From the IMG/VR virus record IMGVR_UViG_3300025131_000540, positions 1 through 20,594 of that record: DNA of 20,594 nt. One strand, 5' to 3'. A program made the translations under genes and the position numbers. This document shows, one piece after another, positions 1,650 through 20,594 of the stretch. Below the pieces are notes generated by a model. It was given only the letters and a program-made list of their open reading frames with translations, was not told where the DNA came from and searched no databases. Origin of the DNA: a virus. Each line of letters opens with the position of its first letter. Position 1 is the stretch's first letter.

Positions 1650-4600
1650 ATGAGCCCTCCTACATCAAATACTACTGGAATCAATTTAGAGGCAGCAATC
1701 TCATCAAATTCGCCCAATATTCCTTTTTCATCGCGACACACAACAGAAGCTAACACAACAGCAATTCGTTATAATGTTGTTGTTTATTACGAGGGCGATA
1801 ATCATGTGGCTTCGCTTTCCACTGCCGCGGATGATACTACTTTGAAGCTTCTTGCAACAGAGGCCCTCTTAACACACTACTTTCCTGAATTTTATCCGTT
1901 CATAGTAGGAGAGAATACCAGTGCAATATCTCATCTGGAAAGTATTTTTCTCGCCCTGAGGGATGAGATAAATAATTCGTTGAGTGCAACTTTCACAAAA
2001 AGAGTAACGGGGGCACTCTTTCCAAGTGCTCTGAAAATTATTTTTTCTACATTTGTGAATTTTTACGACAAGAGGCACGAACTTTATCTTGAAGCCGAAC
2101 TGCCTTCATTCGATGCCGCCCTGACGCTTTTTAATACAAAACAAGGTTACGGCGCTCCCCATACAACGAAAAATTTTGATATTACGGCCACCGCCAACAC
2201 GACCGATGCCATGTCGGATATTTTTGAAAATTTGGGGGAGCTATATAGCCACGCCAATCCTCCGTTGAATTATACTTTTGATTTTGGGTCCATGCAGGTA
2301 GGTTTTCGAGCCGCCATGAGAGTAATATTAGATGTAGTTTATAACACAATAGATCTTCGTGGGAATCAGGCAGACCCCACTGATGAAGATTATATTACAA
2401 TTTATTTTGATGATCAAAATAATATTGTTAAAATGGAATATTTCATGATAGAAGAAAATCAAGGAAATACGATGACTTCTAAAATAGGCTATTTTACAAA
2501 TATAAAATATAATTCAACCTTTCGAGACCCGATGCTCAGAAACATGTTGATGAATTATGATTCAATAATGAACGAGGCCGGAGAGAGATCTGGCCTAAAT
2601 CAGCAAACATCAATAATTGATTTTTTTGAGAATTACGGCGCTCAAGCCAATTTAGACTCCCCAGGAGATTTTACAGAGTGGGGGGTTCCTTTCGGCCCCG
2701 ACACCGGCGGCGGCCCTCCATATAATAATATTTTTGCACCTCGTTCGTTTGATAGGCCTCTTGACTTTGATGATTTTGAAGAATTGAAATCAACAATTAA
2801 ATCTTTTGTTAAGTTTGATGAGGTCGTCGCTATCAATAATCTCACCAACGATCCCGATTTTCGCCGTCGCATGTTCGCCATGGAAAAGGCGAAAAGGATA
2901 AACGCAGCAATACAAGTTACCAACATTTTTGATAAAGTCGTTAATTTTAATCTACCTTTGGCCGGCCCAAATAAAACCAAAGAAGCAAAAATGATAAATC
3001 AAATCCTGCAGCAATTTGGAATAACACAGCTTATCAAAGAGGCTATAATGTGTTTCGCCAGCGGAGCCGTGGCATCTATGACGCGAGTTTCTGCAGCAGT
3101 TAGAAATGCCCTGATGGAGGCCGATCTTTATGCTCCCCCCTCAATGCCATCTGATGAGCTTAGTCTCGATGGCCTCAAACCTCCACTGGGCGCTTTTAAA
3201 ATATATTTTTCAATTTCAGGAGATCCGCCCCTCGGGAAGCAAATTTTAAACATAATTTTTAACGCTTTGGCCAATGCTGGCTTTGAGATTATCAAAGGAA
3301 TATCTGAGATCATCCAAACCGCATGCGGGGAATTGTTTGATGCCAGCACCGGCGATATAGACATTTCAGTCGAGCTCGAGCAAGCCCACGCACAATTAGA
3401 TATCCCGAATTTAGATGATATTTTGAATACTCAGTATCGCGCAGCTGGGTTTGATTCCCTTTCGCAGGGGTATGAATATTTAGCAGAGGTGTCGCAAATA
3501 CTTAATGTAATTGAAGTATGTAGACTACTAAATTCCACGGGCGACGTCACTACCGAAACTATTGAAAGAATTGTTGTTTTTAATCAGGCATATGAAGTTC
3601 AAAATATTCGAAGAACTATGACGACCAGAAATCAGATTCTAGCATTTTTTCAATCTATCTCGCGTTATGTCGACACCACAACAATGTGCAATGAATTGAT
3701 TAATAATTATGTTGTGCCGGCTGTTGCCGATTGCGAAATATGTTTAGATGAAAATATTTTCACGCCCGGGCCAGCGATAGAAAATCTAATAGATTTGTTA
3801 GAAAATGGCCCCCAGATCGAAATACCAGATATAGACTTTTTATGTCCGAACAGTGAATATTTTGTTCCAAATCCGGTCATCGAACGGATTATCCCGCGTT
3901 TATTTTATACTATGGTGGAGTCGATAGATGTATTTTTCGCCAGCTCTCTTGAGGCGTCACGCACAGCGCTGTTGTCTCCGACTCTTTCCACCGCGAGCAG
4001 CGACATGCTGGAGATGTTGGAGGCAATGGGTCTTTGGCCCCCTCAAACCGGCGATGGCGAAGAAGACCCGGTAGAACCAGACCCGGATATCATAGAGGAT
4101 ATTATTGACATCTTCGAAGATCTCGAATCAGGCCTGGAACACGTGGAAAATTTTGTAGATAGCTGTCCAGACGTAGATACGAGTCGCCTTCCGGGCTTCG
4201 ATGAGATCGGGATCATCGTCGACGCTCTTAAGGAAGGCCTAGCCGCAAGCAGCGACAGTATTGAAAATTTTAAAGACTCAATAACCAATCTTCATGATAA
4301 TTTATCAAACAACGGCGAGCCGATCACCCCGGGAAGCGTGACAGTAGAACTAGCATTCCCTACAGAGTATAAGAATCGGTTTGACCAAGCAATTGGGCAG
4401 ATAATTTTCAACCCTGATGCTCGGCCCCTACCAGCCCGGGCAGACGTACGTACTGCTCGCCACGTGTTATCCGACGTCTCCCCTTGGGACCAACCTGCTA
4501 TCCAAGCCCTCCAAGCCGCCGGCCTCTCTGGTTCAACCTCAGACAAACGGATCGCAGGATCAGTTTTTAAACATGACCATGTTTCATCTCTCTATGAAGA

Positions 4601-7343
4601 AGGCCGCATTCAATTTGATTTCTTGCGAAATAAAGAGAATTATGATATTACTATTGAATACCCCTCGCTGAAGGCTCCGGGTGATCCACAGTTTAATTTT
4701 ATATATAATTTAACCAGAGATCGTCTAGGCACCGGCCTCGAAGCTGACATGGTGGGTACTATAGAAAACTTTGTCGACCCGCTGCACGACCCGCGCCTCG
4801 AAGTAGGTCCTCCGATCGACCATCAATTGAATGAATATATTTATAGATTTTTGCAGCAAGAAGATCCGAATTTGAATTCCCCTGGCTGGCCTACTAAGGT
4901 CCAGGCCGATTTCCCGATGGTGTATCTGAATATGATAGACCGGGTGTTTAATTATATTTTAAATAATGGCTCTTTTAACGAAGCTAAGATAAATGCTTTA
5001 AATTTATTTAAAAACAATATTCACTGCGATGGCCCAAATGTAGGAGACCTGCTTGACGCAGACGGGATCCTGGAACAGCTGAAACAGGAATTTGCAAGAT
5101 CTGCATGCGAAGATGAGCGCGCCGGCTTAAACACAGAAAGTATCAAGGAAAAAACTAGGAACGCCCTTCGATTTGGAATAATTAATCTTTTAATACAGGC
5201 ATTGATAATTCGCTTTTTTATAAAAAATATTGTGGCCTTTAGTGCCTTCAGTATGCAAGATATACTAAGCCCTAACTATCCCTTTAAGGATATGATTGTT
5301 GAAATAATAATAAGTGAATTTGAAGATTTGCCACACAATGGGACTCCTGCATTTAAGAAAGCTCTAGAGGAGTACTTTATAAGATTATCCAGCCGTCCCA
5401 CCGCAGCAGACGCCGGCGGAATTGCACACTCATATACACCAAATGTGGTGGTTTCTGGGTTTGAGGCTCCCGATTATCCGTCCATTGGCACTGTACGTCC
5501 TATGATTCGGTTTATGGTTGAAGAGCGACTCGGATTTACTTGGTCAGATGCTTCTTCCCCTGATTCTAATCTTCCTAATAACCGCTCCTGCGCGACTGCC
5601 ATCACTAGTGTTATAGGCGCGAGGAAAAAGTCATATGCTGATGCTTTTTTGTATGATATTGTGGGCATTTATACTGGATTTGGCAAAATGGGCGACGTAC
5701 GTGCTGATATATGGCCCGGAAAATTTGGAATTGTTAAAGAAATCATTATAGAAGGCGAAGGGGAAACGATTAAAGACCCCAACGACCCGAGCGGACTACA
5801 AAAGATGCTGGTCACCCCGGAACATCATCTAACAGTTGATTATTTTGTTGAGCACTTTGAAGTGCTTCAAGAAAAAGAACTTTTTGGCTTCAAAACCGTC
5901 GAAGACCCGGAAGAAAGCGATTACTCCAGCAGCTCCGGCGGCGACAAACATATATCTTTCAAAAAGATAAAAACTGCCTATAGCTTATATTATTGGCCAC
6001 CAGCAACCAAAGAAGCGCAAGGGATCCCAGGAATCGCGCACTACGGCTCGACTGCACAATACCGCGAGCTCATAAAAGCATTCATCACCATCTTACGCGG
6101 TGAGCCCCTCCCAACAACGACGGGCCCCACCCCGGCCATCGGCGGTCAGTTCGGTTGGGAAAATATGACAGAAGAGTCGATTGCTGATGCAATGATTATA
6201 GGCTACACCGGTGATCTTCCGTCCAACATGTTCGGCGATCTCTCCAATGATGGATCTACGATAACGCCTCGGGTTCCCGCCGATCAACGCCCCCAAAGAT
6301 TGCTGACAGTCCCGGCACTTTCACTCAGCCCCGCGCCAATTAAAAATTATAATGAGTTACCCCCAGAAATTTTATATTTTATGGGCTGCAGCGACGGCCG
6401 GCCACCAAGACCAAACAACAAAGATTACGCTTTTATAAAGAACTCAGCTGCATTTAATACTTTCTTTAATCAGGTGCTAAATCGTCATGCAGCCCTTATG
6501 GTGCCGATTCTGTATAACACATATTTAGCCGGAAAATATTGTCCCGAGCTTGCGGGAGCATTTGACAGTACTATCTCTGCTATTGTTGGTCTTATGGACA
6601 CCGTCGAGAAAACCAACTCACCCCCGGAACTTCAACCACGAGGGGTTTCAGTTACTAACCCAACCAATTCTTCGTTCGATATCGCGGGAATGTTTAGGGA
6701 AATAATATTGAAATTCTTAAGAGAGACGCCAATCCATATCCTCAGGGGATTGGCGGAAATACTTGACCCACATGTTGTTGTCTGCAAAATAGTACGACAA
6801 ATTAGCGCCATACCTCTTGATATCATCGCGCGCTCGATCACAGCGGCCATCAAAGCGGCACCCGACGATGGCCCCATGGCCCCCCTGAAGGCTCACAACA
6901 CCAGAGGCGAAGATATCATGAACTTGGCCTTCTGTGCCTATAATCTGGGCAACACCAAGATTTCTGATGCCGTCGAGGGCAACATCGATGATGTCGAGTT
7001 CGAGATGGGCCCTGATTCACCGCGAGTTGGTCCTTGGATTGACTTCAAAGGAGTGGATTTCCTGGGATCTGTGTCGGGGATGTTTATGATGCCCCCGTTT
7101 ATATTCGGTATTTTGTATTTATTGCTCAGACTTTTGTTGTCGAAAATTGATGAAGGAGATTATGGGTCGGCCAGTCCTCAACTATCAATGGAACCATCCG
7201 CAGGTATGTTGTCTTCTGGTATGGAGGGCGCTTGCGGGGATTCGGATTCGGTCGACGCTCAAGGAGATCCTGCTTGTGTCGATCTATCGGCAAATCTATC
7301 GGCAAAGCAATTGCAAACCGATGTTTGTGCCGAAGATGAATAA
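1650..7343 (+). CDS. Very large (1,897 aa) unrecognised virion-type protein with C-terminal hydrophobic segment
   Basis: The ATG follows the upstream stop by two bases with no Shine-Dalgarno sequence, suggesting translation coupled to the preceding gene. I cannot assign a domain family. The N-terminal third is mixed alpha/beta and rich in Asn, Thr and Asp. An acidic, helical linker-like stretch starts near residue 801 (GDGEEDPVEPDPDIIEDIID). A hydrophobic helix lies near 1177-1200, and a strong one near 1811-1830 (MFMMPPFIFGILYLLLRLLL) looks membrane-capable. A 67-residue acidic tail with three Cys follows. There is no N-terminal signal peptide. Size and position ahead of the baseplate genes recall a tape measure protein, but it lacks the long continuous helical or coiled-coil character expected, so I do not call it one. 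A baseplate, tail or membrane-contacting injection component is plausible. Nearly 5.7 kb without a stop makes the gene itself certain. Confidence 0.88.
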   Translation: MSPPTSNTTGINLEAAISSNSPNIPFSSRHTTEANTTAIRYNVVVYYEGDNHVASLSTAADDTTLKLLATEALLTHYFPEFYPFIVGENTSAISHLESIFLALRDEINNSLSATFTKRVTGALFPSALKIIFSTFVNFYDKRHELYLEAELPSFDAALTLFNTKQGYGAPHTTKNFDITATANTTDAMSDIFENLGELYSHANPPLNYTFDFGSMQVGFRAAMRVILDVVYNTIDLRGNQADPTDEDYITIYFDDQNNIVKMEYFMIEENQGNTMTSKIGYFTNIKYNSTFRDPMLRNMLMNYDSIMNEAGERSGLNQQTSIIDFFENYGAQANLDSPGDFTEWGVPFGPDTGGGPPYNNIFAPRSFDRPLDFDDFEELKSTIKSFVKFDEVVAINNLTNDPDFRRRMFAMEKAKRINAAIQVTNIFDKVVNFNLPLAGPNKTKEAKMINQILQQFGITQLIKEAIMCFASGAVASMTRVSAAVRNALMEADLYAPPSMPSDELSLDGLKPPLGAFKIYFSISGDPPLGKQILNIIFNALANAGFEIIKGISEIIQTACGELFDASTGDIDISVELEQAHAQLDIPNLDDILNTQYRAAGFDSLSQGYEYLAEVSQILNVIEVCRLLNSTGDVTTETIERIVVFNQAYEVQNIRRTMTTRNQILAFFQSISRYVDTTTMCNELINNYVVPAVADCEICLDENIFTPGPAIENLIDLLENGPQIEIPDIDFLCPNSEYFVPNPVIERIIPRLFYTMVESIDVFFASSLEASRTALLSPTLSTASSDMLEMLEAMGLWPPQTGDGEEDPVEPDPDIIEDIIDIFEDLESGLEHVENFVDSCPDVDTSRLPGFDEIGIIVDALKEGLAASSDSIENFKDSITNLHDNLSNNGEPITPGSVTVELAFPTEYKNRFDQAIGQIIFNPDARPLPARADVRTARHVLSDVSPWDQPAIQALQAAGLSGSTSDKRIAGSVFKHDHVSSLYEEGRIQFDFLRNKENYDITIEYPSLKAPGDPQFNFIYNLTRDRLGTGLEADMVGTIENFVDPLHDPRLEVGPPIDHQLNEYIYRFLQQEDPNLNSPGWPTKVQADFPMVYLNMIDRVFNYILNNGSFNEAKINALNLFKNNIHCDGPNVGDLLDADGILEQLKQEFARSACEDERAGLNTESIKEKTRNALRFGIINLLIQALIIRFFIKNIVAFSAFSMQDILSPNYPFKDMIVEIIISEFEDLPHNGTPAFKKALEEYFIRLSSRPTAADAGGIAHSYTPNVVVSGFEAPDYPSIGTVRPMIRFMVEERLGFTWSDASSPDSNLPNNRSCATAITSVIGARKKSYADAFLYDIVGIYTGFGKMGDVRADIWPGKFGIVKEIIIEGEGETIKDPNDPSGLQKMLVTPEHHLTVDYFVEHFEVLQEKELFGFKTVEDPEESDYSSSSGGDKHISFKKIKTAYSLYYWPPATKEAQGIPGIAHYGSTAQYRELIKAFITILRGEPLPTTTGPTPAIGGQFGWENMTEESIADAMIIGYTGDLPSNMFGDLSNDGSTITPRVPADQRPQRLLTVPALSLSPAPIKNYNELPPEILYFMGCSDGRPPRPNNKDYAFIKNSAAFNTFFNQVLNRHAALMVPILYNTYLAGKYCPELAGAFDSTISAIVGLMDTVEKTNSPPELQPRGVSVTNPTNSSFDIAGMFREIILKFLRETPIHILRGLAEILDPHVVVCKIVRQISAIPLDIIARSITAAIKAAPDDGPMAPLKAHNTRGEDIMNLAFCAYNLGNTKISDAVEGNIDDVEFEMGPDSPRVGPWIDFKGVDFLGSVSGMFMMPPFIFGILYLLLRLLLSKIDEGDYGSASPQLSMEPSAGMLSSGMEGACGDSDSVDAQGDPACVDLSANLSAKQLQTDVCAEDE
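7282..7305 (+). repeat. Perfect 12-bp tandem duplication (two copies)
   Basis: ATCTATCGGCAA occurs twice back to back inside the 3' end of the 1,897-codon gene. It encodes the repeated LSAN/LSAK in the acidic tail. The unit is a multiple of three, so copy-number change would keep the frame. It is a small slippage product with no known role. Confidence 0.75.
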
Positions 7344-7361
7344 GTAAAACATCGTGTATTG

Positions 7362-7415: not shown

Positions 7416-7817
7416 ATGGCATCTGGACTAGCAGTTAAATTACCTCTGGTAACCGACAACACTTTTGGTGCATATAACTTAATTACCGACTATACGTCAC
7501 TAATAAAGCAAAACCTAAAAATGTTGATTTTGACCAACCCGGGCGAAAGAATGATGGATATAAATTTTGGAGTCGGGCTGCGCCGTCGAATATTTGAACA
7601 ACACATCGGCTCCACTTATGCAGAAATTGATAAAGACATTCGAAGACAGGTCAAGAGATATCTGCCGTTTGTAGAAGTAGTAAAGATAAACTTCATGACA
7701 CCAGAAAATAGTCCAGATCTTTTTCCGCACAGATTAACGGTGCAGGCATATTTCGTAATCATCCCTCTACAGCTGAATACGCTTTTAGAAATTGATGTTC
7801 AAAATATGGCAGCCTAA
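7416..7817 (+). CDS. Baseplate wedge protein, gp25/GPW-like (lysozyme-fold family)
   Basis: The 133-residue product has the length and pattern of the gp25/GPW family of contractile-tail baseplate wedge proteins (T4 gp25, P2 gpW). Diagnostic is the early helix DYTSLIKQNLKMLILTNPGE, continuing into RMMDINFGVGLRRRIFEQ. This matches the family pattern in which a long helix is followed by a GER-type turn and a (P/D)xFG loop. The C-terminal half alternates strands (VEVVKINFM, RLTVQAYFVIIP). In known baseplates this small protein links the wedge to the sheath and helps initiate sheath assembly. The gp6-like wedge partner follows 20 bases downstream, the classic neighbour order. The start is set by AAGAGGA 7 bases upstream. 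No oddities are seen. Confidence 0.9.
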   Translation: MASGLAVKLPLVTDNTFGAYNLITDYTSLIKQNLKMLILTNPGERMMDINFGVGLRRRIFEQHIGSTYAEIDKDIRRQVKRYLPFVEVVKINFMTPENSPDLFPHRLTVQAYFVIIPLQLNTLLEIDVQNMAA

Positions 7818-7837: not shown

Positions 7838-9631
7838 ATGACAAAAAAGATTGTACCAATAGATTACACTAATAGAGATTTCGACTCTATTAGAGAAGCG
7901 TTAGAGAATTTTACCAAGAGATACTATCCAAATACCTATCGAGATTTTAATCAAGCGTCCTTTGGCTCTCTCATGTTGGACACAGTTGCCTATGTAGGTG
8001 ATATTCTATCTTTTTATTTAGATTATCAAGTAAATGAAAGTTTTTTGGACAGTGCCATAGAATATTCCAACGTCCAGCGAATCGCCCGGCAACTTGGATT
8101 TAAGTCAAGCACCAACCCGTCGTCTCATGGAATCTTGACATTTTATATTGAAATACCCTCCTCGACCACAGGCTTGGGCCCAGATACGTCTCTGAATCCA
8201 ATTTTACAGGCAGGCTCTGTATTCGGTTCTTCGGGTGGCGGGATGTATACCCTTTTAGACGATGTTGATTTCACCGACCCCGCGGCTCAAATAGTTGTTG
8301 GCTCGAGCGACCCCACTACCGGCAATGTGCTTACCTATGTAGTCCGTGCGGTTGGCAGAGCGGTCTCCGGCCGCGGCGGGGTGACAAGAATAGAGTTGGG
8401 ATCTTTTAAAAGATTTCGTAGGGTAAGTTTAGGAAAGATAAACCTAAGTGATATTATCAAAGTAACCGACATAGAAGGAAATGAATACTTTGAAGTCGAT
8501 AATTTATCACAAAATATAATTTACAAAGCAGTCAGGAATACCACAGCAACCAGAAGCACTGTCCCTAATATTTTGAAAGCGGTCCCCGTTGCTAGAAGAT
8601 ATGTGTTGGAAACAGTTGATGGTGAAACCTTTTTACAATTTGGCTACGGCTCAACTGATAATAATTTGACAAATCCGGTCGTCGACCCCACAGAAGTGGT
8701 GTTGGACTTAAGTGGTAGAAATTATACAACAGATCTGGAATTCGATCCAACAAAATTAATAAGTACGGATAAGTTTGGGATTGCTCCCTCAGATACTACT
8801 TTAATAATAGAATATCGTTTTAATACGACTCAAGACGTGAATACAGCAACCAATACGATTTCAGACGTTATTGAAGGAAATTTTAAATTTGCGAATCAAG
8901 GAGCCCTATCTCCCGTTAAAAGAGACGTGGTCATTGGTTCCTTGGAAGTGAGTAACGAAAATCCATTTGTGGGGGATGTCTCTCTTCCCTCATCGGAAGA
9001 AATTAAACAAAGAGCATACGGTTATTTTGCTACACAGAATAGGGCCGTGACGGCGCAAGATTATCAAGCGCTAACGTACAGCATGCCAGCCAAGTATGGG
9101 GCGATTAAGAGATGTGCCGTTGGCAAAGACGCGGATGAGTTTAAACGAAACATTAATTTGTATGTTATATCAGAAACAAGCACGGGTAAATTAACTTTGG
9201 CTAATGTCACATTAAAAACAAACCTTAAGAACTGGCTTCTTCAACACAAAATGATTAGTGATACGATAGACATTTTAGATGCCAGAATAGTTAATTATAC
9301 TCTTCATTATGAGGTAATGCCAACTCTCAACTCGAATCGTTTTGAAGTTATTAATCAATGTAATAGGGCAGTAGCGAAAGAATTTACAACTATTTTAGAT
9401 ATCGGAGAACCGCTTTTGTTGAGCGATCTGTATAGAGTTTTACAGCCAGTTCCTGGTGTTCTAGACGTTATTTCGGTGGAGGCAAGACTTGCGGACGGAC
9501 CCCTATATTCTGTTTCAAGTTATGATTTTGACGCGGCTTTATCGGCAGACGGAAGAATGGTACTCGCCGATAAAAATGTTATTTTTGAGCTAAAATATCC
9601 TAATCTTGATATTAAAGGATCTGTTAGGTAA
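7838..9631 (+). CDS. Baseplate wedge protein, gp6/baseplate J-like
   Basis: This 597-residue protein begins with a typical gp6/baseplate-J opening: PIDYTNRDFDSIREAL, then the hallmark MLDTVAYVGDILSFYLDYQV at about residues 47-66, then RIARQLGF. The middle is a beta-rich domain, including the FLQFGYGSTD loop typical of this family. The C-terminal part has the usual sequence of PSSEEIKQRAYGYFATQNRA, VTAQDYQAL, then helices (KTNLKNWLLQH) and LLLSDLYRVLQPVPGVLDV. Known homologues dimerise and form the inner ring of the baseplate wedge that opens on contraction. A GGCAGG ribosome binding site precedes the ATG by about 8 bases. The stop codon directly abuts the next start (TAAATG), implying a co-translated unit with the DNRLRE-like protein. 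Assignment is from recognisable family pattern and neighbour order; confidence is high. Confidence 0.9.
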   Translation: MTKKIVPIDYTNRDFDSIREALENFTKRYYPNTYRDFNQASFGSLMLDTVAYVGDILSFYLDYQVNESFLDSAIEYSNVQRIARQLGFKSSTNPSSHGILTFYIEIPSSTTGLGPDTSLNPILQAGSVFGSSGGGMYTLLDDVDFTDPAAQIVVGSSDPTTGNVLTYVVRAVGRAVSGRGGVTRIELGSFKRFRRVSLGKINLSDIIKVTDIEGNEYFEVDNLSQNIIYKAVRNTTATRSTVPNILKAVPVARRYVLETVDGETFLQFGYGSTDNNLTNPVVDPTEVVLDLSGRNYTTDLEFDPTKLISTDKFGIAPSDTTLIIEYRFNTTQDVNTATNTISDVIEGNFKFANQGALSPVKRDVVIGSLEVSNENPFVGDVSLPSSEEIKQRAYGYFATQNRAVTAQDYQALTYSMPAKYGAIKRCAVGKDADEFKRNINLYVISETSTGKLTLANVTLKTNLKNWLLQHKMISDTIDILDARIVNYTLHYEVMPTLNSNRFEVINQCNRAVAKEFTTILDIGEPLLLSDLYRVLQPVPGVLDVISVEARLADGPLYSVSSYDFDAALSADGRMVLADKNVIFELKYPNLDIKGSVR

Positions 9632-11128
9632 ATGTCAATTCTAAGATATACGGCCAGTGCTGATACAACTATTGCTAACGCCTTCGAAGCAAACCTTTCT
9701 ACTCGCGGAACTGGATCTAATATGGGTTATGCCGATTCGCTTGAAATATTTTCTATCTATGGACAAAAATCCGGATCAGCCCTGGGACAATCTCAGGAAC
9801 TTTCCCGTGCGCTTATTAAATTTCCCACAACAAAGATGTCCTCCGACAGGACCGCGGGGACGCTTCCAGTTTCTGGCAATGTTTCATTCTATCTAAAAAT
9901 GCATAATGCACGCCACCCCTTTACATTACCACAGAATTTTAATTTAGTTGTAGCTCCTGTATCTAGATCGTGGTCAGAGGGCTCGGGCCTCGATATGGAA
10001 GAATATCAAGATATTGGTTCTGCAAATTGGATTAAATCTGGCGATAACACCACTTGGACATCCATCGGGGGCGATTATTTAGCAACTTCAAATTATAATG
10101 TGTCGTTTCCGCAAGGCTATGAAGACATTGAGTTGGATGTAACACAAATAGTGGAACAGTGGATGGGAGGTGCGGTTAGTAATAATGGGTTTGGCATTAG
10201 ATTGACAGCCAGTCAAGAGGGGTACTATTCTAGTTCTACTGGCCAGAATACCTCTGTTTTAATACATAATGCCGGTGGAGCGACTGAATCATATTATACA
10301 AAGAAGTTTTTCTCGCGCTCAACCGAGTTTTTTTTCCGGCGCCCAGTAATCGAGGCGCGCTGGAATTCGTCTGTTCGTGATAGGAGAGAAAACTTTTATT
10401 ATTCTAGCTCTTTGGCTCCGGCCACTGATAACTTAAATACCTTATATTTATATAATTATATTAGAGGCCGCTTAGTCGATATACCTGCAGTTGGACGTGG
10501 CTCAATTTTGGTATCTTTGTATTCTGGTTCTACCGCGGCTCCAACCAGCTCGGCACTTGTATTGTATGACGGCAACACTAATATAACGGGTGGGTGGGTT
10601 AGCACTGGAATTTATTCTGCATCCATGGCAATTACTGCCGCGGCCACACCCTTGCAAGTATTGCTCGATGTTTGGCATGCCGGAACCACAGAATATTTTA
10701 CTGGCTCAATTTATCCGGAGAAAATGCCCACCTATAGTTCAGCGCCGACATTTAATAAGGTGACAAGCATCAAAAATCTTAGAAAGTCTTACTCTACTGA
10801 AGAAAAGGCAAGATTTAGATTATTTATTCGTGACAAAGATTGGAACCCAACGATTTATACAGTCGCAAAGTCAGTCAATCCAACCGATATTATTGAAAGC
10901 GGAGCGTATGCCATATCAAGAGTTACAGATAACTTGCGCGCCATTTCATATGGAACGGGCAGCGACCTACAGACTTTGATGTCGTACGATGGCAACGGCA
11001 ATTATTTCGACTTAGAAATGTCTTTATTGGAGTCTGGATATATGTACCAGATTAATCTAGCATATTATAATGACTCAATTTCTACTTGGGTGGAACAACC
11101 TTATACGTTTAAATTTAGAGTTGAATAG
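9632..11128 (+). CDS. DNRLRE-type beta-sandwich virion protein (probable baseplate accessory or adhesin)
   Basis: The N-terminal roughly 240 residues of this 498-residue protein match the DNRLRE/carbohydrate-binding beta-sandwich pattern. It opens with YTASADTTIANA, then a G-rich NMGYADSLEIF segment, LSRALIKFP, SRSWSEGSG, and IELDVTQIVEQWMGG followed by NNGFGIRL (about residues 165-190). The rest is beta-rich with many Ser, Thr and Tyr; no catalytic motif, signal peptide or membrane segment is seen. The start codon abuts the stop of the gp6-like gene (TAAATG) with AGG just upstream, so the genes are probably co-translated. The giant LamG gene follows after 10 bases. DNRLRE domains are mostly known from secreted bacterial surface proteins, so the role as a baseplate-rim or host-contact protein is inference from position and fold. 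Confidence 0.75.
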   Translation: MSILRYTASADTTIANAFEANLSTRGTGSNMGYADSLEIFSIYGQKSGSALGQSQELSRALIKFPTTKMSSDRTAGTLPVSGNVSFYLKMHNARHPFTLPQNFNLVVAPVSRSWSEGSGLDMEEYQDIGSANWIKSGDNTTWTSIGGDYLATSNYNVSFPQGYEDIELDVTQIVEQWMGGAVSNNGFGIRLTASQEGYYSSSTGQNTSVLIHNAGGATESYYTKKFFSRSTEFFFRRPVIEARWNSSVRDRRENFYYSSSLAPATDNLNTLYLYNYIRGRLVDIPAVGRGSILVSLYSGSTAAPTSSALVLYDGNTNITGGWVSTGIYSASMAITAAATPLQVLLDVWHAGTTEYFTGSIYPEKMPTYSSAPTFNKVTSIKNLRKSYSTEEKARFRLFIRDKDWNPTIYTVAKSVNPTDIIESGAYAISRVTDNLRAISYGTGSDLQTLMSYDGNGNYFDLEMSLLESGYMYQINLAYYNDSISTWVEQPYTFKFRVE

Positions 11129-11138
11129 TAATTAGGAT

Positions 11139-14100
11139 ATGAGCTTTAAAACTTTATTTGATAAAGCCAACGCGGCCTCATCTTTATCCAATAAGTCTGC
11201 ACAGGATATCGGTGCAGAAGTTGAATCTGTTGGATATCACACAGAGGACATGAAAAAAGAAGCGCGGTTTATTCCGCGTGTAGACTTTTCAAGGCCAGAA
11301 AATTTTGCTCGTTATGGGTCCGCAGAAGAGTATTATCAACAATCGCTCGAGCGCATATGGGAAACGTATCCATATGATGGTTCTCTAAAAGAAAAATTGC
11401 AGTGGGAAAATGATTCTACTGAGATAGATCTTCATATTTTTGATAATTTATATCCTCGCACTAATGGATATATTAATTTTTCTGCTAAAGGGTGGGGATC
11501 CCTTCAGGGCTCGAAGAGGGATGGCTATGGTCTCTCGGACGGTAGAGAGTACATCTATTTTAAGGGAGGCCCACACCCCAGTACTGACAGTACAACATCC
11601 TTATCGACAAAATTTACGGGATCAAATTATTATGAGCCAGACGCCAATCGCGCCAGTAATCTACATTTTGATCTTAAGAATAAAGGCACTACAGTTGAGT
11701 TTTGGCTTAAAAAAGAGCGGTTCGATCCCGACTCAACAGAAAAAGAAGTCATTTTCGATCTTTGGAATGGTGAAGCCCCCGGATCCTCAGACTATGGAAG
11801 GTTTAGAATTGAATTAACGGGCGCCACCGATGGGGTTGGTCCGTTTAGAGTTACAGTAATGTCGGGCACTACAGGAGTTATCAACGCTTCAGTTGCCGCT
11901 ACTGCCTTTACTACCGCTTCAGTTGCCGACAATGCATGGCACCATTATGCGCTTTCTTTGAAGACACCCCAGTCCACCACCGCCCAGAAATCGGTTCTAT
12001 TTGAGGCCTCGACTTCGGATAGAATAAATATAGGCGCCAGCTGGGAATCTCCGATCGGCGGAGAGACATCAGCAGCGCGCCCGTTTACTCTTGCAGCATG
12101 GGTATATATAGACCCAGATACGACCGAGGCCACTCCTATGGTGCTTAGCTTCGGCCACAACCGCACCTTCAAATATAACCTTTCCACTGGAAAATTCGAG
12201 TTTGTGATTCGAGATGACAGTTTGTCGTATACAACGGCTACAACAACCAACATTATTTCCAAGGGACAATGGCATCATGTTGTGGCCACCTATAGCGGGG
12301 GGAGTACGTATGGCGATGGCGTAGGCACCATGAAGATATACATCGATGGCGTTCATGAGACCAGCGCGCCCACCACGGAGACATCCGCGAAGGCCATCGT
12401 GGCCTCGACAGGCTACATCGGCGGGTGGGGCACCCCATCGCATAGCAACTTCTGGGATGGATATATTGATGAGGTAACCATCTGGAGTGCGGCGCTAACC
12501 GCTGCCGAAGTTACCGCCGTTTATAATAATGGCATACCCAGCAGCCCCACGGCCACCGGGATGCCCTCTTCCCTTCTATCATGGTATCAGATGGGAGACA
12601 ATGCCAATGATAGTCTTGATGGTACCACTTCCGCCTCGTCGACTAATAAGATTGTTGATAAAAAAGGCGGCAGGGACGGATATTCTGATAATGGCTCTAT
12701 GGCTGCAAACCAAATCGTTTCTTATTCGGCAGCCAATAGCTCGCTTAAGACAAAATTTTATGTCGATGGCAACTTAAATAAAGAGGATCTTTTTAGTACT
12801 GGCCTGCTTAGCCTTGATTCCTCTAACATTAACGAGGTTTCGGGCGCCCTTCGAGCATACATCGGCGCATTAATTACATCTCCATCCGCGTCCTCGGCAC
12901 CACAGTATGCAGGAAAATTATCTGCTTCGTTGGATGAATTTCGTTATTGGAAAGCTCAAAGAAGTTCAAAAGATATTGGGCGCTTTTGGTTCGACCAAGT
13001 TGGTGGGGGTACCAATACCGATCCCGAACCATTTACAGACACACAAATATCAGTTAATACTAATTTAGGAGTTTATTTTAAATTTAACGAAGGCATTGTG
13101 GGCAACACATCGACAGATAGTATTGTATTAGATTATTCAGGCCGCGTTTCTAACGGCGCCTGGACTGGATATAGTGCTGGGTCTCGTAATACTGGGTCTG
13201 CTATTGTGGAGTCAAGCGCGGCAACAAAAGAATTTAAAGATCCCATAATCTATTCCGGACACACAGACGTAGTAAATCTTCAGAATAGTTTGAGCATATC
13301 TGGCTCCGATCACGATGTTGGCAATAATGCTTTAATTTACAACTCAATTCCTACCTGGATAACAGAAGAAGACACAGCCGGCCAGAAACATTTAAAACAA
13401 TTAACTCAGATAATGGCAAGTTACTTCGACACCTTGCATCTCCAAATTGAATCATTGAACAGCCTGAAGGATGTGCAATATGTAAGCGGCAGCGACAAAC
13501 CCCTTCCTTTTGCGGCAAAATTATTAGATTCTCATGGGTTCATATCCCCAGAAATATTTTTAGATGCTGATGTTCTGGAAAAACTGGCCGATCGAAGTGA
13601 AGATCGTTTATACGATAAATCCCTATCTGATATCAAAAATATTATTTATCAAAACATATACAATAATTTAACATTTATTTATAAGTCAAAGGGCACAGAA
13701 AAATCATTTAGAAATCTTATTCGTTGTTTTGGTATAGATGATGAATTAATAAAACTTAAGCTTTATGCCAAAAATACAGACTTTGAATTTAGAGAAAACC
13801 GCAGAATATTGTCGGTTGCCAACAAGTTTGTTAATTTTAACACAGGATTAAATACTAATGCAACTGTCTTTTCTTTCAAAGAGAGTGGCAACCCGGATAC
13901 CACAGGTATTATACCAGAAGTTGCAGCATTAACTGACGGCTTTGCATTTACATTAGAAACAGACCTCTTTTTCCCCAAAAAGCGTGAAATAACAAATCCT
14001 GCATATTTTAATACTAATGTTATCTCATCTTCTTTGTTTGGCATACACGGTACCCTAGATGCTGCAACCGCATCGACTGATACTACATGGCCCGTTGCGT

Positions 14101-17100
14101 TTTCCACTTCATCTTGGACAACAAATGAGGCGGTTAATTTTCAAGTGTATGCAGTCAGGGACGAGCTTAAGTCTAGAAATGTTAGGTTTGTTTTAACAGG
14201 TACCGCCGGCGGAGAAGTTCCTCGTCTTGAGTCGGACTTGTATGAAGATACATATAATGATGTAAATTGGAACTTGTCTGTTCGAATAAAGCCTGAGAAT
14301 TATCCTTTAACAACATTAAAAAATACCTTTAATACTGGACACTATACAGTTGAACTTCACGGAATTAAGGCTCAATCGGGTGAGATAACAGACACCTTTA
14401 CCATATCCGGATCTGTTCTGTCTGCAAGTAATAGCTTTATTACGGGAAGTCGTCGAGTATTCGCCGGCGCGCATAGAACAAACTTTACTGGCGCAGTTTT
14501 ACAATCTAGTGATGTAAAACTGGAGGCATGTCGTTTTTGGCTTGATTATGTTGAAGACACAGCATTACGTAATCACGTTTTAGATTCTGAAAACCATGGC
14601 CCGCTGCAGCCATCGGAATACGCTTTCCCGTTTGAAGTTAGCGGCGCCTACAACGATCTCAAAAAAGCAGATACCCTAGCCTTTAACTGGGAGTTTAGTG
14701 CCAATACAGGGTCCAACGCATCTGGCGAATTTATTATTGCTGATGAAACGTCGGGCTCGGCCACTATAGCTAATAATAGATTTGGCGTCTTAGGACCAAT
14801 CGTTGGCAAACAATATAGTGGCAAAGGCTATGGCTTCGAGGCTTCATCTACTTCGCCCATTTCTAAAGAGTCTGTGGTTGTTTCAAGATTAAATGAATTG
14901 GAAACGATCGCCCCGGCAGAAATGATCAGTGTTCTCAGCACCGAAGACCAGCAAGTATTTAAGATTGATTCCCGCCCGGTAAATTATTTTTTCTCTTTTG
15001 AGAAAAGCATGTATAACACAATCAGCGAAGAGATAGTAAATTATTTTGGCACTTTAAAAGATTTTAATAATGTTATTGGATCCCCGGTTGAGCGTTTTAG
15101 AGGACGGTATAAGTCCATGGGGGTACTCAGGCAAAGGTTTTTTGAAAAAATTAAAAACGATGAAATTGATTTTGATAAATTTTATGAATTTTATAAATGG
15201 TTTGATTCGTCACTCTCCTTTATGCTCGGCCAGTTGGTACCGGCGTCGGCCGATTTTGCTGAAAATGTTCGTACGATTGTCGAAAACCACGCTTTAGAGA
15301 GGAATAAATATCGAAACAAAGTTCCCTTTTTAGATAAAGAATCCACAGTGTTCGAAACAAATCTCTTTAGCAACGTTGATTACGGGGAAGCCGTTTCATC
15401 TCCGGATGATGATGCCCAAGGTACGGGATTTTATCCTCCTCAGGCCCCGAGCCGCCGCGTTGCTGGTCTATCTACCGCAGGGTATGTCGATAAATGGAAA
15501 TATGTTCATGCACCACCAGACGCGAGTGAAGATGAAAAATATCTTTGGTGGAAACACAAAGCCGAAAAAGAGTGCAATACGGGCCTCTGGGGCGACGGCG
15601 ACATTCGAGTCTGCGAATCTCGAACCAAAATAGCCGATACCATGGGCAGCGCCGATGCACGAGAAAAGGCAAGATGTTATAGATTTTCAGTCGCTGGAAA
15701 CTACTCTTTAGGTGGCGTCGGCTTGTCGTTTAACAAAAGGCCTAATTTTGTTTTTAATGCCACTGCTCCCTTTGGAAGAGTTGTTTCAGGAACAGAGGCC
15801 ATTGAAAACATAATTGTGGCGAAAGCGTCAGAAGTGGAAACACTTTTGGATACTATGGATGAATTTTATCCTTCTTATAAACAGAGACTTGGATTCCAGG
15901 CTGATCCCGATATTAATAAAAACAACAGCTCCGATGCCAAGACGAATGGCACCATAATAGCGCCGTTTAGTCTATATAGTTCTTCTGTGACCACAGGCTA
16001 TAACGAAGAACTTGGCAATTTGTTCAAATCTGGCGTCACAATTACAAATCTACACCACGATTTGGTATATGACAATACGCTTCCTGCGCAGGGGCCCTTT
16101 ACAGAAAGGTTCGTCGGTGGCCGAAAACATCGTCATACTCCAATAAACCAGGGATCCGACGGAATTTATACCCGCGCCGAGGGTTGGCGCATTCAATTTG
16201 GGGGGGTATCCTCTTCTGCTGGGGGGACCTTCACTAGTTCCCTAGCAATGATTCCTCCAGATTCCCGCGGCGCTTCATCAATATCCAGTATTCCAACAGC
16301 TTATAAGTTCAGAGACGAAACCGCCAAGCGGCCAGTCAATATCAAAAATATTTTAATGACCACTGCGTCTGCGGACACGGCTCTCTCTGGGGTGTTGGTT
16401 CATGGTCCTATAGGTAATTATCAAAAGAACTATCAGGTAGTTCAAACAACGGGGCGCACAACCAACGATCCATTTTTTCAAGACCAGTCTTTTGATTTTG
16501 CCCGTTACCCAGAAACCCTAGCCACCCGCGGCCGCTTCCCTCTTGCACCCCAAGGAGGGAAATCTGTTCATTTTGATGGTGGCAATGATTATATTGAAGC
16601 AGGGGTTGCGGGCGGCAGCGATTGGGAGGCTGCTGTCGGCGGCGCCGGGGCAGCTGCGAAGCCTGTTAGCTTTTCAATGTGGTTGAATGCTGACTCGCTC
16701 CCGTCCGGATATTGGATTTTCAAACTCGGCGACACTTCTACCCCAACTTATAGTATGCAAATTAACTCTAGCAAACTTAGATTTGTAGTTGGCAAGAGCG
16801 GCACCGACCCATATGTGTTTTCTTCGACAATTTCAGCTGGGACATGGTACCACGTGGTTGTAACTCTTGCTGCTGGGACCGGCAACAAGCCCAATATGTA
16901 TATTAATGGAGCACTTGATAATGGTACTTTAGGTAGCGCAACTAGCGACAATATAGCGATAGCCGATATACTACGAATTGGAGACGCAGCCCTTTGTTAT
17001 GATGGATATATCTGTGACTTTGCGGTATGGGGCAAGGAACTTTCAGCTGCAGAAGCGTCGACAATTTACTCCGCCGGCGGCCGCATCAACTTGCGACATA

Positions 17101-20100
17101 TTGGGAGTGACAGTCGTACCGGCGGACTAAATCCAACTCCGAACGGTCTAATTGCTTGGTATCCACTTGGAGATGATAGTCGCGATGCCAATGACGGCAC
17201 TTTTCATGATCAAATGGGGTTTGCTAACGGTACTGCTAACAATTTCAGTGAACCGACGAACGCTGACTCTGGCATTTCGCCTGAATTCCCTCCCTACAGC
17301 GCATACGGAAGTCTTATAGAGAACCCGAGAGGCAATCTAGATTATGAGTTGCCTAATCGAACCGGCGCGAATTCCAATCAATCTGTTATTGTAAATCGCT
17401 TTAGTGCAGGCGGTGCTGGCTATGAAGTCAACTCCCCCGGATATATGGACCCAGCGCATGAAGAGATGTCAGTTTACAATGCGTCTCCTTACCGAAGCCC
17501 CCGCACCCTTAACTTTGGAAATACAGGATCTCTTGGACAAGTCTACGGCGAACTTTCAGGCACCATTCAGGTCCGAGATCAGATCGGAAGACCGCGAGGT
17601 CTTAGGCAGCTTTCTAGGCTTCACAGTGGCAGGTTCGGTGCAGATGGAGTCTTCGGGGAAGTGGTGCCTCAGACATATGTGACCGTTCCGTCTTATCATA
17701 AGACCAATCGGAATGCTAAGGTGGTAATGAAAGAGGTCACTGGGCATGCTGCTAAATTTGATAGCCCCTATGAGTCTGGAGTTGGATATGCCCTGGGAAC
17801 TGTGGCTAGCGGCGCGATAGGCGGAGCGGCATACGGTTCTACGCTGTACAACGCATATATGAATTTCACCCCAAATCCTGTCTCCAACTGGTCCATGGCA
17901 ACATGGCTTTATATTGATGCAAACTCGCCCAATATGCCTCCCTCGGGAGATGTCTCAAGTACACCATCCTTGGGTCGGCATAATGTATTTGCTGTTACTG
18001 TTGATAATGGACAAGAGAAAACGTCGCTGTATTATAACCAAAGCGACGACAAAATGGTGTGGCATTACTCAGGCTCTGAAAATGGTCTTATAGAATGCGC
18101 CGGCGCAGCCCCCTTAAATCGGTGGTTCCATATTGCATTGGTTCGCAAACAGGGGCTCAACAACTCAACGATCGACGAAAAGTTTTTGAGAATGTATATC
18201 AATGGTGTTGAAGACTGGCAACTGAGGATCACGGGTAGTGGAACCGGCATATTACAAGTCCCCTTGCAGGTGAACTCGCAACTATCCCTCGGCGCCAGCG
18301 GCGATGGCGGCACCCCCTTGAGGACTTTTAACGCTACGTCATCATATCCGTGGATTGGTTCTATGAGCGAAATGGTGTGGTATGTTCATCGCTCCTTGAC
18401 TACGACACCAATTCAGAGCCTTTATAACGGAGGATATACGTTTGATCTTTTTGATAGTTCAATGGTTAAACAAGCTTCCACAGAAACTGTACGCCAAGAG
18501 TATAATGAATTGGGTCTACCACATCCCTCCACTTCGGGATCCTATCCTACTGATTTATTAACCAATCTTGTCGCGTATTATCGTTTTCATCAATTTTCTG
18601 GCTCTCAAATAGGAGGCACCGATACTTCTTATGGTTATTCGGACAACCCAGCGCGCCATGATGGTGCTGATGCCTGGAACACTCTGGGCGTTCTTAATGC
18701 TATTCAGAAGTGGTTCACTGGGTCTTACCCCACCTATCCAGTCAAAGAGACGCGCAACGCCACGATGCCGCTTTCGTCTGTTTATCTCAATGGTAATGTT
18801 AAATTTGAGAGCACGAATTCACCCAAATATGTGCAGCGATCCATTCAGTATGACAACTTGTTTGTACAGCATCCAATTCCGAGATCTGTGCAACAATATA
18901 GTTGGGTTACTTCTTCTTTACAATCACATCCAGCATATCGTCCCATCCCGGCGCAAGATACTTTTTATGATCTCCAGGCGCCGAGTTGTATAAAAGCCAC
19001 TTCTCTCGAAGGTATCGCTACTCACGGAGATGCTTTTTCTCGGGGCCCTCGTATTCAAAGAGTTAACACTACTAGGTGGGGGCGCCCCACTCCAGTTACC
19101 GGATCAGATAGATTGATGTTTTTCGGTAGAGAGCCCTTGCATGTTGGCTTGAACACAATGATTGTAGACCCTGTAGATACGAGCCTCCATATCCAGGGTG
19201 CCACGGTTGTAGAACCCCCGACCGGAGATCCTACTCCTGAGTGGCCTGCAACGCTTACCCCGCGCCGCCTAGGCGGTCCCCAAACCGTACCGACAAATTA
19301 TGAGGCAACCCCTGTAATCTCTTCTCGTGATGGACAGCACTTTAACAACGTCTGGGGGACAACATATTTTGGGCACATATATGAGTGGGACGCACTTATC
19401 GGCACCGGTTCGACAAATGCAAATCAAATGTCCTGGACATGGTGGATGAGAAGAGACGGTCCGGGCAAGAATGCATATAACTATAATACAGTACACCAAT
19501 ATTCGACCCCTGCGCACTGGCCTAGAATTTTTAATTTTGGTAATTCTAATATGTACGGCTCCGTACGAGCGCAACCAGGCACTTTCTTTACAACGGTCGA
19601 CGATGATGGCTATTTATCGTTATACGCAAGTAACTTCTCGACAGCCACCGGTTCCTGGGTTGTTTGCGACGAAACGGGCGGATCCACTATTGAGAATGGA
19701 AAGTGGTATCATGTTGTAATGACTTATGATGGGTCCTCTGCTTCAAACAATCCTATCTTTTATGTTAATGGACGAAAATACACTGTCTCTGGTTCAGCCA
19801 TCGGCGGATCAGGCGGTAATATAGCTTGCCGTACGCGACCGACTGGTTCATATGTAGGATTATCCTCTAATTTCACCGATATGACTGTAGGAAATTCTTC
19901 TTACTATGCAGGCTATGGCTTGGGTACCGTGCAGGGCACGTGGGATGGAATGTTTGCTGACCTAGCCGTATGGAATACGATTTTGAATGATTCCCAGGCC
20001 GCCGCGTTATATAACAACGGCGCCGCAACAAATATCAAACAGCTTCTCCCGGAGGATTTGGTGGCTTGGTATCGCTTCAGCCCGGGCGCCGGAGACCGCG

Positions 20101-20594
20101 CGGACACGCCCTACAACCACGCGATTCCCACTGCATATTCTCAAAGTAACGCCGGCGCCATCGCACTGGGCGAAATCCCGATGCTCACCTCGACCTTCCC
20201 AACGTCGGGGTCTCTTATGCCCGTTCGCAATACTGCACCTGACCTTAAAACCTTTGAATCTGATTACGCCACATCTTTTAACACTCTTAATCTGGGTCGT
20301 AATGGACCTTATGGACATCCCACGTGGAAACAGATAAGAACCGGTGAGCACAAAGTTGCGCGTCAATTGCGCAAGGAGAACAAGATCGGCGTTCTTATAC
20401 CCCCGGCGCCAACTAAGTCTCGCCGTGGTCTACAACAAGGCAAGCAAGCCAACAAATTTGTGGATTATACCGAAATGCCGGTCGTTTACGATACCGCCAA
20501 GCCCATTGAGTTTGTATTCGAAGATCGTGCCGGCGGAAACAAAGACAACGATCTGAGACTCAAGGTTAGTTATCAGAATAACATGGACTATTTC
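11139..20594 (+). CDS. Giant baseplate/tail adhesin with five LamG modules (3'-partial, at least 3,152 aa)
   Basis: A single frame without stops runs from the ATG at 11139 past the right edge. TTAGGA lies unusually close to the ATG, but MSFKTLFDKANAASS and the following ESVGYHTEDMKKEARFIPRV read as a genuine N terminus. Order of parts by residue: scaffold 1-150; LamG-1 first part about 154-275; nested LamG-2 about 276-537; LamG-1 remainder 539 to about 650; tail-protein-I-like section from about 731, with YKSKGTEKSFRNLIRCFG at 848-865; a long beta-rich scaffold, with WWK- and Cys-containing residues near 1467-1520; LamG-3 about 1808-2010; LamG-4 about 2240-2485; LamG-5 about 2760-2980; and a C-terminal scaffold with LGRNGPYGHPTWKQIR at 3052-3067. 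LamG evidence is the recurring W(H/Y/F)H(V/I/Y) strand, then (K)xYx(D/N)G, then W...LYNxG and L(V/I/L)(A/S)WY. Likely role: baseplate-attached host receptor binding. Confidence 0.9.
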   Translation, partial: MSFKTLFDKANAASSLSNKSAQDIGAEVESVGYHTEDMKKEARFIPRVDFSRPENFARYGSAEEYYQQSLERIWETYPYDGSLKEKLQWENDSTEIDLHIFDNLYPRTNGYINFSAKGWGSLQGSKRDGYGLSDGREYIYFKGGPHPSTDSTTSLSTKFTGSNYYEPDANRASNLHFDLKNKGTTVEFWLKKERFDPDSTEKEVIFDLWNGEAPGSSDYGRFRIELTGATDGVGPFRVTVMSGTTGVINASVAATAFTTASVADNAWHHYALSLKTPQSTTAQKSVLFEASTSDRINIGASWESPIGGETSAARPFTLAAWVYIDPDTTEATPMVLSFGHNRTFKYNLSTGKFEFVIRDDSLSYTTATTTNIISKGQWHHVVATYSGGSTYGDGVGTMKIYIDGVHETSAPTTETSAKAIVASTGYIGGWGTPSHSNFWDGYIDEVTIWSAALTAAEVTAVYNNGIPSSPTATGMPSSLLSWYQMGDNANDSLDGTTSASSTNKIVDKKGGRDGYSDNGSMAANQIVSYSAANSSLKTKFYVDGNLNKEDLFSTGLLSLDSSNINEVSGALRAYIGALITSPSASSAPQYAGKLSASLDEFRYWKAQRSSKDIGRFWFDQVGGGTNTDPEPFTDTQISVNTNLGVYFKFNEGIVGNTSTDSIVLDYSGRVSNGAWTGYSAGSRNTGSAIVESSAATKEFKDPIIYSGHTDVVNLQNSLSISGSDHDVGNNALIYNSIPTWITEEDTAGQKHLKQLTQIMASYFDTLHLQIESLNSLKDVQYVSGSDKPLPFAAKLLDSHGFISPEIFLDADVLEKLADRSEDRLYDKSLSDIKNIIYQNIYNNLTFIYKSKGTEKSFRNLIRCFGIDDELIKLKLYAKNTDFEFRENRRILSVANKFVNFNTGLNTNATVFSFKESGNPDTTGIIPEVAALTDGFAFTLETDLFFPKKREITNPAYFNTNVISSSLFGIHGTLDAATASTDTTWPVAFSTSSWTTNEAVNFQVYAVRDELKSRNVRFVLTGTAGGEVPRLESDLYEDTYNDVNWNLSVRIKPENYPLTTLKNTFNTGHYTVELHGIKAQSGEITDTFTISGSVLSASNSFITGSRRVFAGAHRTNFTGAVLQSSDVKLEACRFWLDYVEDTALRNHVLDSENHGPLQPSEYAFPFEVSGAYNDLKKADTLAFNWEFSANTGSNASGEFIIADETSGSATIANNRFGVLGPIVGKQYSGKGYGFEASSTSPISKESVVVSRLNELETIAPAEMISVLSTEDQQVFKIDSRPVNYFFSFEKSMYNTISEEIVNYFGTLKDFNNVIGSPVERFRGRYKSMGVLRQRFFEKIKNDEIDFDKFYEFYKWFDSSLSFMLGQLVPASADFAENVRTIVENHALERNKYRNKVPFLDKESTVFETNLFSNVDYGEAVSSPDDDAQGTGFYPPQAPSRRVAGLSTAGYVDKWKYVHAPPDASEDEKYLWWKHKAEKECNTGLWGDGDIRVCESRTKIADTMGSADAREKARCYRFSVAGNYSLGGVGLSFNKRPNFVFNATAPFGRVVSGTEAIENIIVAKASEVETLLDTMDEFYPSYKQRLGFQADPDINKNNSSDAKTNGTIIAPFSLYSSSVTTGYNEELGNLFKSGVTITNLHHDLVYDNTLPAQGPFTERFVGGRKHRHTPINQGSDGIYTRAEGWRIQFGGVSSSAGGTFTSSLAMIPPDSRGASSISSIPTAYKFRDETAKRPVNIKNILMTTASADTALSGVLVHGPIGNYQKNYQVVQTTGRTTNDPFFQDQSFDFARYPETLATRGRFPLAPQGGKSVHFDGGNDYIEAGVAGGSDWEAAVGGAGAAAKPVSFSMWLNADSLPSGYWIFKLGDTSTPTYSMQINSSKLRFVVGKSGTDPYVFSSTISAGTWYHVVVTLAAGTGNKPNMYINGALDNGTLGSATSDNIAIADILRIGDAALCYDGYICDFAVWGKELSAAEASTIYSAGGRINLRHIGSDSRTGGLNPTPNGLIAWYPLGDDSRDANDGTFHDQMGFANGTANNFSEPTNADSGISPEFPPYSAYGSLIENPRGNLDYELPNRTGANSNQSVIVNRFSAGGAGYEVNSPGYMDPAHEEMSVYNASPYRSPRTLNFGNTGSLGQVYGELSGTIQVRDQIGRPRGLRQLSRLHSGRFGADGVFGEVVPQTYVTVPSYHKTNRNAKVVMKEVTGHAAKFDSPYESGVGYALGTVASGAIGGAAYGSTLYNAYMNFTPNPVSNWSMATWLYIDANSPNMPPSGDVSSTPSLGRHNVFAVTVDNGQEKTSLYYNQSDDKMVWHYSGSENGLIECAGAAPLNRWFHIALVRKQGLNNSTIDEKFLRMYINGVEDWQLRITGSGTGILQVPLQVNSQLSLGASGDGGTPLRTFNATSSYPWIGSMSEMVWYVHRSLTTTPIQSLYNGGYTFDLFDSSMVKQASTETVRQEYNELGLPHPSTSGSYPTDLLTNLVAYYRFHQFSGSQIGGTDTSYGYSDNPARHDGADAWNTLGVLNAIQKWFTGSYPTYPVKETRNATMPLSSVYLNGNVKFESTNSPKYVQRSIQYDNLFVQHPIPRSVQQYSWVTSSLQSHPAYRPIPAQDTFYDLQAPSCIKATSLEGIATHGDAFSRGPRIQRVNTTRWGRPTPVTGSDRLMFFGREPLHVGLNTMIVDPVDTSLHIQGATVVEPPTGDPTPEWPATLTPRRLGGPQTVPTNYEATPVISSRDGQHFNNVWGTTYFGHIYEWDALIGTGSTNANQMSWTWWMRRDGPGKNAYNYNTVHQYSTPAHWPRIFNFGNSNMYGSVRAQPGTFFTTVDDDGYLSLYASNFSTATGSWVVCDETGGSTIENGKWYHVVMTYDGSSASNNPIFYVNGRKYTVSGSAIGGSGGNIACRTRPTGSYVGLSSNFTDMTVGNSSYYAGYGLGTVQGTWDGMFADLAVWNTILNDSQAAALYNNGAATNIKQLLPEDLVAWYRFSPGAGDRADTPYNHAIPTAYSQSNAGAIALGEIPMLTSTFPTSGSLMPVRNTAPDLKTFESDYATSFNTLNLGRNGPYGHPTWKQIRTGEHKVARQLRKENKIGVLIPPAPTKSRRGLQQGKQANKFVDYTEMPVVYDTAKPIEFVFEDRAGGNKDNDLRLKVSYQNNMDYF
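11885..11928 (+). repeat. Short direct repeat, 14 bp twice at 30-bp spacing
   Basis: CGCTTCAGTTGCCG occurs at 11885-11898 and 11915-11928, giving the repeated peptide ASVA in LamG-1. The spacing is ten codons and in frame. It ends about 35 bases before the point where the nested LamG module begins. It may be a slippage duplication; a role in module insertion is speculative. Confidence 0.7.
11964..12750 (+). other. Nested LamG module (LamG-2) inserted inside LamG-1
   Basis: This in-frame segment encodes a complete LamG fold: SVLFEASTSDRINIG opening, FTLAAWVYID, WHHVVATYSG at 378-387, KIYIDG at 399-404, DEVTIWSAAL, VYNNG at 461-465 and LLSWYQMGDN at 479-488. It sits between WHHYALSLK (267-275) and KFYVDG (539-544) of the outer LamG, which are adjacent strands in an uninterrupted domain. 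Parts are visibly GC-richer than neighbouring stretches: 12361-12420 has 41 G/C of 60, whereas 13621-13680 has 10 of 60. Boundaries are accurate to perhaps 10 codons. Confidence 0.75.
16200..16226 (+). other. Paired homopolymer G tracts (G7 and G6) in the giant adhesin gene
   Basis: A run of seven G (16200-16206) and a run of six G (16221-16226) lie within 27 bases inside the coding sequence, encoding GGV and GGT. A one-base slip at the first tract leads to a TAG at 16235 (one alternative frame) or 16243 (the other), truncating the protein near residue 1,700 before LamG-3. The tracts are seen directly; any role as a contingency locus is inference. Confidence 0.6.

Follow-up and report, generated by a model that had tools for sequence, protein, structure and literature searches.

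A complete LamG domain lies nested within another domain of the same family, LamG-1, between the outer strands WHHYALSLK and KTKFYVDG of a 3152-aa phage protein. The arrangement is indicated by the order of motifs, a split Pfam match, homologues that are empty at the same site and predicted models, and agrees with what a preliminary description of this DNA had proposed. At the level of sequence, comparison of related contigs establishes the nesting itself, the existence of empty homologues, the recurrence of the insertion and a localised replacement of alleles. It is quite probable that the nested LamG occupies a hairpin turn of LamG-1 on a baseplate-associated adhesin, that its core is swapped by recombination, and that such swaps change the glycan or receptor recognised by the phage.

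The large ORF and its gene neighbourhood

The window, i.e., the whole stretch of DNA analysed (20,594 nt of the IMG/VR record IMGVR_UViG_3300025131_000540), carries all its main genes on the + strand, comprising a gp25-like gene, a gp6-like gene, a 498-aa gene and the 3152-aa ORF, with the 498-aa gene lying between the last and the gp6-like gene. Pfam Laminin_G_3 (LamG_3, PF13385) matches five stretches within the ORF. The features outside LamG-1 are as follows.

7416..7817, + strand: gp25-like baseplate wedge subunit (PHROG 261, E 3e-12)
7838..9631, + strand: gp6-like baseplate wedge subunit (PHROG 219, E 3.1e-21; homologues in isolates)
11139..20594, + strand: baseplate-associated multi-LamG protein, ORF of 3152 aa (five LamG_3 stretches; follows the gp25-like and gp6-like genes; right end open)
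13260..14009, + strand: conserved core downstream of LamG-1, residues ~708-957 (...YKSKGTEKSFRNLIRCFG...); the loci compared are 47-66% identical to the window
16650..17054, + strand: uninterrupted LamG module, residues ~1838-1972 (Pfam LamG_3)
17880..18314, + strand: uninterrupted LamG module (Pfam LamG_3)
19566..19790, + strand: LamG module close to the right end (Pfam LamG_3)

Judged by gene position, the product of the 3152-aa ORF appears to be associated with the baseplate and to sit at the tail tip of an uncultured tailed phage, and the company this phage keeps among metagenome contigs suggests that it is probably marine. A tblastn search of INPHARED was negative for homologues of LamG-1 and of the 787 residues that follow it, so that cultured relatives are linked by gene order and profile match only. 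By gene order, Microcystis phage Mel-JY01 and Flavobacterium phage immuto carry a large gene at a roughly equivalent place, and the immuto protein (Immutovirus YP_010114574.1) gives a profile match with E 8e-16, in three short pieces; LamG domains were searched for in the proteins of both isolates and none was found. Profiles of the conserved core after LamG-1 gave nothing significant against PDB, Pfam and PHROGs and pointed to no known baseplate protein family, and in a check for a P2 gpI or T4 gp7 type, one of 20 members matched Tail_P2_I, weakly (E 0.12).

Several small differences from three near-identical contigs (L006, L008 and L011) lie upstream of the ORF. All three share a small mismatch cluster in the 498-aa gene (window 10477-10795) and lack 21 bp of the window near the end of a 1897-aa ORF (window 1650-7343; difference within 7177-7345), at a site occupied by a 12-bp tandem repeat (7282-7306). 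In the same 1897-aa ORF, which had no match in Pfam or PHROG, the L011 version of window 6746-7045 diverges more strongly than the sequence around it and exceeds the window's in length by 27 bp.

A LamG domain inside LamG-1

LamG-1 is divided into three parts by the insertion.

11466..11963, + strand: outer LamG-1, N-terminal half, residues 110-275, last strand WHHYALSLK (Pfam, model strands, empty homologues)
11964..12749, + strand: nested insertion, residues ~276-537 (Pfam, VIA-align, missing from most homologues)
12744..13118, + strand: outer LamG-1, C-terminal half, residues 536-660, with KTKFYVDG, DEFRYWK and LGVYFKFNEG (motifs, model strands)

The nesting had originally been proposed from the spacing between two strand motifs, short in uninterrupted LamG modules and about 272 residues in LamG-1; the positions used for this argument (W267, W378, K399 and K539, and likewise 1903, 2329, 2351 and 2856) proved correct when checked on the sequence. 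The outer N-terminal half covers LamG_3 profile positions 12-89 only (residues 177-275, window 11667-11963) and stops at residue 275, and KFYVDG (539) appears only after a complete inner LamG. The outer fold is then completed, as had been claimed, by DEFRYWK (about residue 599) and LGVYFKFNEG (643), both in the outer part. The inner domain provides the best LamG_3 match of the entire ORF (residues 313-458, E 1.6e-27 as a single domain), and its 90.3 bits exceed the curated LamG_3 cut-off of 27.6, placing it far above chance level. The folded inner domain, LamG/pentraxin-like in character, spans about residues 281-534.

Empty homologues and predicted structures

Residues 1-720 of the ORF, used as a query against IMG/VR, recovered 80 loci, a handful of which match the full 2.1 kb, while most match only ~1.35-1.4 kb. 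These shorter matches join query residues ~1-276 directly to ~527-760. The preliminary description had suggested looking for homologues without residues 276-537 and regarded a segment present in every homologue as an argument against nesting; most homologues lack the segment ~276-537 and keep both flanks, and most of the 193 unique outer domains eventually collected have no insert. In the empty homologue L013, LamG_3 matches as a single unbroken stretch (profile 4-150, E 1e-12), and others behave likewise, so that the whole-fold match of the outer domain is split in the window and contiguous in L013.

AlphaFold2 models were built for residues 110-700 of the window protein (52 sequences, of which only six span the nested LamG in full; mean pLDDT 79, pTM 0.63, i.e., moderate) and for L013 (45 sequences, pTM 0.79). 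The window model predicts two jelly-rolls, the outer one interrupted and the inner one inserted at a beta-turn rather than following in sequence, as had been anticipated. In this model, the outer strands occupy model positions 74-82, 93-100, 111-118, 127-133, 136-142 and 158-166 before the inner domain and 426-433, 436-444, 463-466 and 488-495 after it. The L013 model places strands 1-6 at 75-82, 93-100, 111-118, 127-133, 138-143 and 159-169, and strands 7-10, equivalent to the window's C-terminal half, at 172-179, 182-189, 202-205 and 227-234. The ten outer strands thus map one-to-one between the two models, and only a two-residue gap separates 169 from 172 in L013, which implies that the insert takes the place of a predicted two-residue hairpin turn. 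Comparison of the two predicted models therefore puts the insert in a loop, with the parent strands intact.

Since the inner domain dominated the structural hits of the complete window model, the outer fold was examined through the empty homologue. The predicted inner fold aligned by VIA-align with LG and pentraxin structures at Z 15-22 over model positions ~172-425 (residues 281-534), including the LG domain of PAPP-A (Z 22.5, rmsd 2.4, 208 aligned, model range 174-443) and serum amyloid P (Z 18.6, 189 aligned, model range 173-423), with pentraxins at Z ~18-19. The outer domain of L013 aligned over its full length with the same two structures (PAPP-A, Z 18.1, 203 aligned; serum amyloid P, Z 16.1). 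The atomic folds of the nested and outer domains described here are those of predicted models.

Inserts across related phages

Further scans with the insert alignment and with L010, L078 and L011 as queries increased the collection to 193 unique outer domains (168 clusters at 90% identity), whose lengths are bimodal, either up to 388 aa or 448-630 aa. Large inserts are present in 17 of the 168 clusters, a proportion that is not a population frequency because the scans favour long matches. As the insert resembles its host domain, hmmalign placed it ambiguously, and the larger inserts were placed again by direct alignment.

Insertion of a LamG domain recurs in 11 lineages at the window's turn and in three lineages at two other loops. 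The former include ten clusters (window/L006, L007, L009, L010, L012, L089, L091, L092, L180 and L386) and an eleventh carrier, L175, whose contig has an upstream frameshift (around 3600-3700, in the outer LamG) that is either real or an assembly error. The remaining three carry LamG in the loop preceding the WHH strand (L174) or in the loop following the YVDG strand (L401 and L403). In addition, a small non-LamG domain occurs after YVDG in L011 and L345, near residue 235 in L065 and near residue 195 in L067/L068, thereby using two further loops and one loop also used by LamG. Three of its four copies (L011, L345 and L068) are mutually related (phmmer E 1e-5 to 1e-8). Scanned against Pfam and PHROG, the small domains found in L011, L065 and L067 had no family match other than that of the LamG flank taken along with L011. 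This small domain spans residues ~290-428 in L011, ~196-320 in L068 and ~235-380 in L065, and is probably beta-rich (...STDGTTITYT...GNT...). On a tree of residues 566-1000 built by a quick method, insert state changes five times, with at least four of these changes forced by starred branches, indicating a scattered presence that arose by gain, loss or transfer.

Allele replacement between near-identical phages

Two replaced blocks overlap the nested domain.

12006..12493, + strand: divergent allele in part of the nested domain, L006 and L008 (difference count, fourfold sites)
11880..12830, + strand: segment wholly replaced in L011 (no nested LamG; an unrelated domain of ~140 aa in the next loop)

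The contig L006 aligns to 8.7 kb of the window with 226 differing columns, 166 of which fall within 12006-12503 (498 bp, nested LamG); from 11800 to 12000, no differing columns were seen. Between a third and three quarters of the fourfold-degenerate sites in this block differ, and almost none do in its flanks. The same allele was found again in L008, from another dataset, with 99.7% identity over 5.3 kb. L011 is near-identical to the window upstream of its replaced block and 99.7% identical downstream. The nested-region alleles of the window and of L011 were each found in one contig only, so that an assembly chimera is conceivable for these two. Comparable exchanges affect other close pairs in the same gene, with L051/L063 carrying divergent LamG-1 alleles at residues ~100-350, and L057/L059 being swapped at residues ~1200-1450 and ~2150-2300, where LamG-like matches sit. 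When the remaining LamG modules of the retrieved loci were compared at the DNA level in search of a donor for the nested core, only nested cores from the same site matched, including that of L175.

Alternative explanations

Multi-LamG proteins are usually organised in tandem, and the 3152-aa ORF does contain several tandem LamG domains, which would fit two sequential domains whose motif spacing had been misread. However, homologues that lack exactly the middle segment retain both flanks, and the empty homologues form one contiguous LamG across the junction, with outer strands corresponding one-to-one, leaving the sequential arrangement highly improbable. That the chimeric arrangement of the window contig arose as an assembly artefact is hardly credible: the single-contig occurrence of the window's exact nested allele would be compatible with it, but the frame is open, about ten other divergent lineages carry a nested LamG at the same turn, and the L006 allele is recovered again in L008. 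Hypervariable lectin-like domains of phage tail proteins are classic targets of diversity-generating retroelements (DGRs), which lends some background to the idea that the LamG variation stems from a DGR or from targeted mutation instead of exchange of whole alleles. This origin is nevertheless very unlikely, given that the alleles also differ by indels and that fourfold-degenerate third positions have changed as well. A DGR target would be expected to display adenine-specific substitution; the comparison of L006 with the window revealed all substitution types and no adenine bias.

A somewhat less remote, albeit still unlikely, interpretation accepts the nested domain as real and regards it as a spacer or decoration that serves stability or oligomer contacts and does not bear on receptor choice, its divergence being attributable to drift and random recombination. 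In favour of such a role, a LamG_3 domain may be structural, a ligand of the nested domain is not known, and most relatives do without the insert. On the other hand, the differences between near-identical phages cluster in the nested core instead of being spread across the gene, and LamG modules elsewhere in the gene are the parts swapped in other pairs, in line with the recognition domains of marine phages (PMC3909814).

Proposed mechanism and significance

In the favoured explanation, namely exchange of a nested recognition module, a complete LamG domain of the concanavalin A-like/pentraxin type would have entered the tight beta-hairpin turn between neighbouring strands of LamG-1. Since a LamG domain has its N and C termini next to each other, the fold suggests that the inner domain can take the place of the turn with the outer fold undisturbed. 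The outer LamG-1 probably acts as an insertion platform that is empty, filled by LamG at the window's turn, filled by LamG at one of two other loops, or occupied by a small domain. Recombination in the conserved flanks is the likely route by which the nested core would be swapped between near-identical phages. The LamG modules of the tail-tip adhesin are expected to bind surface glycans, so that LamG-1 would bear an exchangeable second lectin in its loop, and a swap would most likely alter the glycan or receptor read by the tail tip. By analogy with other LamG and lectin domains, the nested LamG may function in receptor binding and adhesion, and host-range selection may act on its alleles. The earlier idea of a new binding lobe is plausible. 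The empty and alternative versions in related phages suggest a plug-in site for changing phage adhesion. A broader proposal, to which we lend about equal belief and doubt, is that LamG-1 is a dedicated platform, several loops of which accept whole domains, often lectins of the same fold, and that recombination swaps them, resulting in host-range switching by nested and not by terminal modules.

LamG domains, domain insertion and the exchange of recognition modules are each already known separately. No relevant description of a nested LamG or jelly-roll domain came up in a search of the open-access literature; relative to the literature searched, it appears to be new that one lectin is nested in another with the same fold, that this recurs at three loops and that the nested core is exchanged. 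Since the site occurs in nature empty, filled or filled differently, in some cases against a near-identical background, it offers ready comparisons for binding and host change, and LamG-1 represents a natural case of a lectin scaffold that tolerates large inserts at several loops.

Comparison with known systems

The inner and outer domains share the fold of the Laminin_G_3/concanavalin A-like lectins (PF13385) and the pentraxins; unlike usual LamG_3 or pentraxin domains, one copy here sits inside another, and the outer copy is split by 260 residues. According to VIA-align, the closest solved fold for both the inner domain and the empty outer domain is the LG-like domain of PAPP-A (pappalysin-1), a module of an animal protease, with a sequence identity of 13-18% that does not imply a functional relation. 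In the LNS/LG domains of neurexin and agrin, splice inserts in loops tune ligand choice. These loops accept inserts, as LamG-1 does, whereas their inserts are short spliced peptides and not whole LG domains. The exchange of recognition modules in phages is usually pictured at fibre ends; the unit of exchange here is instead a domain that sits within a loop of a conserved domain sharing its fold.

Phage proteins bearing LamG domains have been reported, e.g., in Pseudomonas phage pPa_SNUABM_DT01, where a role in host recognition was proposed (PMC8541153). They resemble the window's protein in placing LamG in a phage protein, and the accessible part of that report does not mention nesting (PMC8541153). 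In metaviromic islands, the parts that vary between near-identical marine phages include recognition domains (PMC3909814). The two systems share a sub-gene variability restricted to recognition domains of the lectin-like, C1q or tail-fibre kind; the variable sites of metaviromic islands are terminal or whole domains, whereas the variable unit in the window is nested within a conserved domain of the same fold (PMC3909814).
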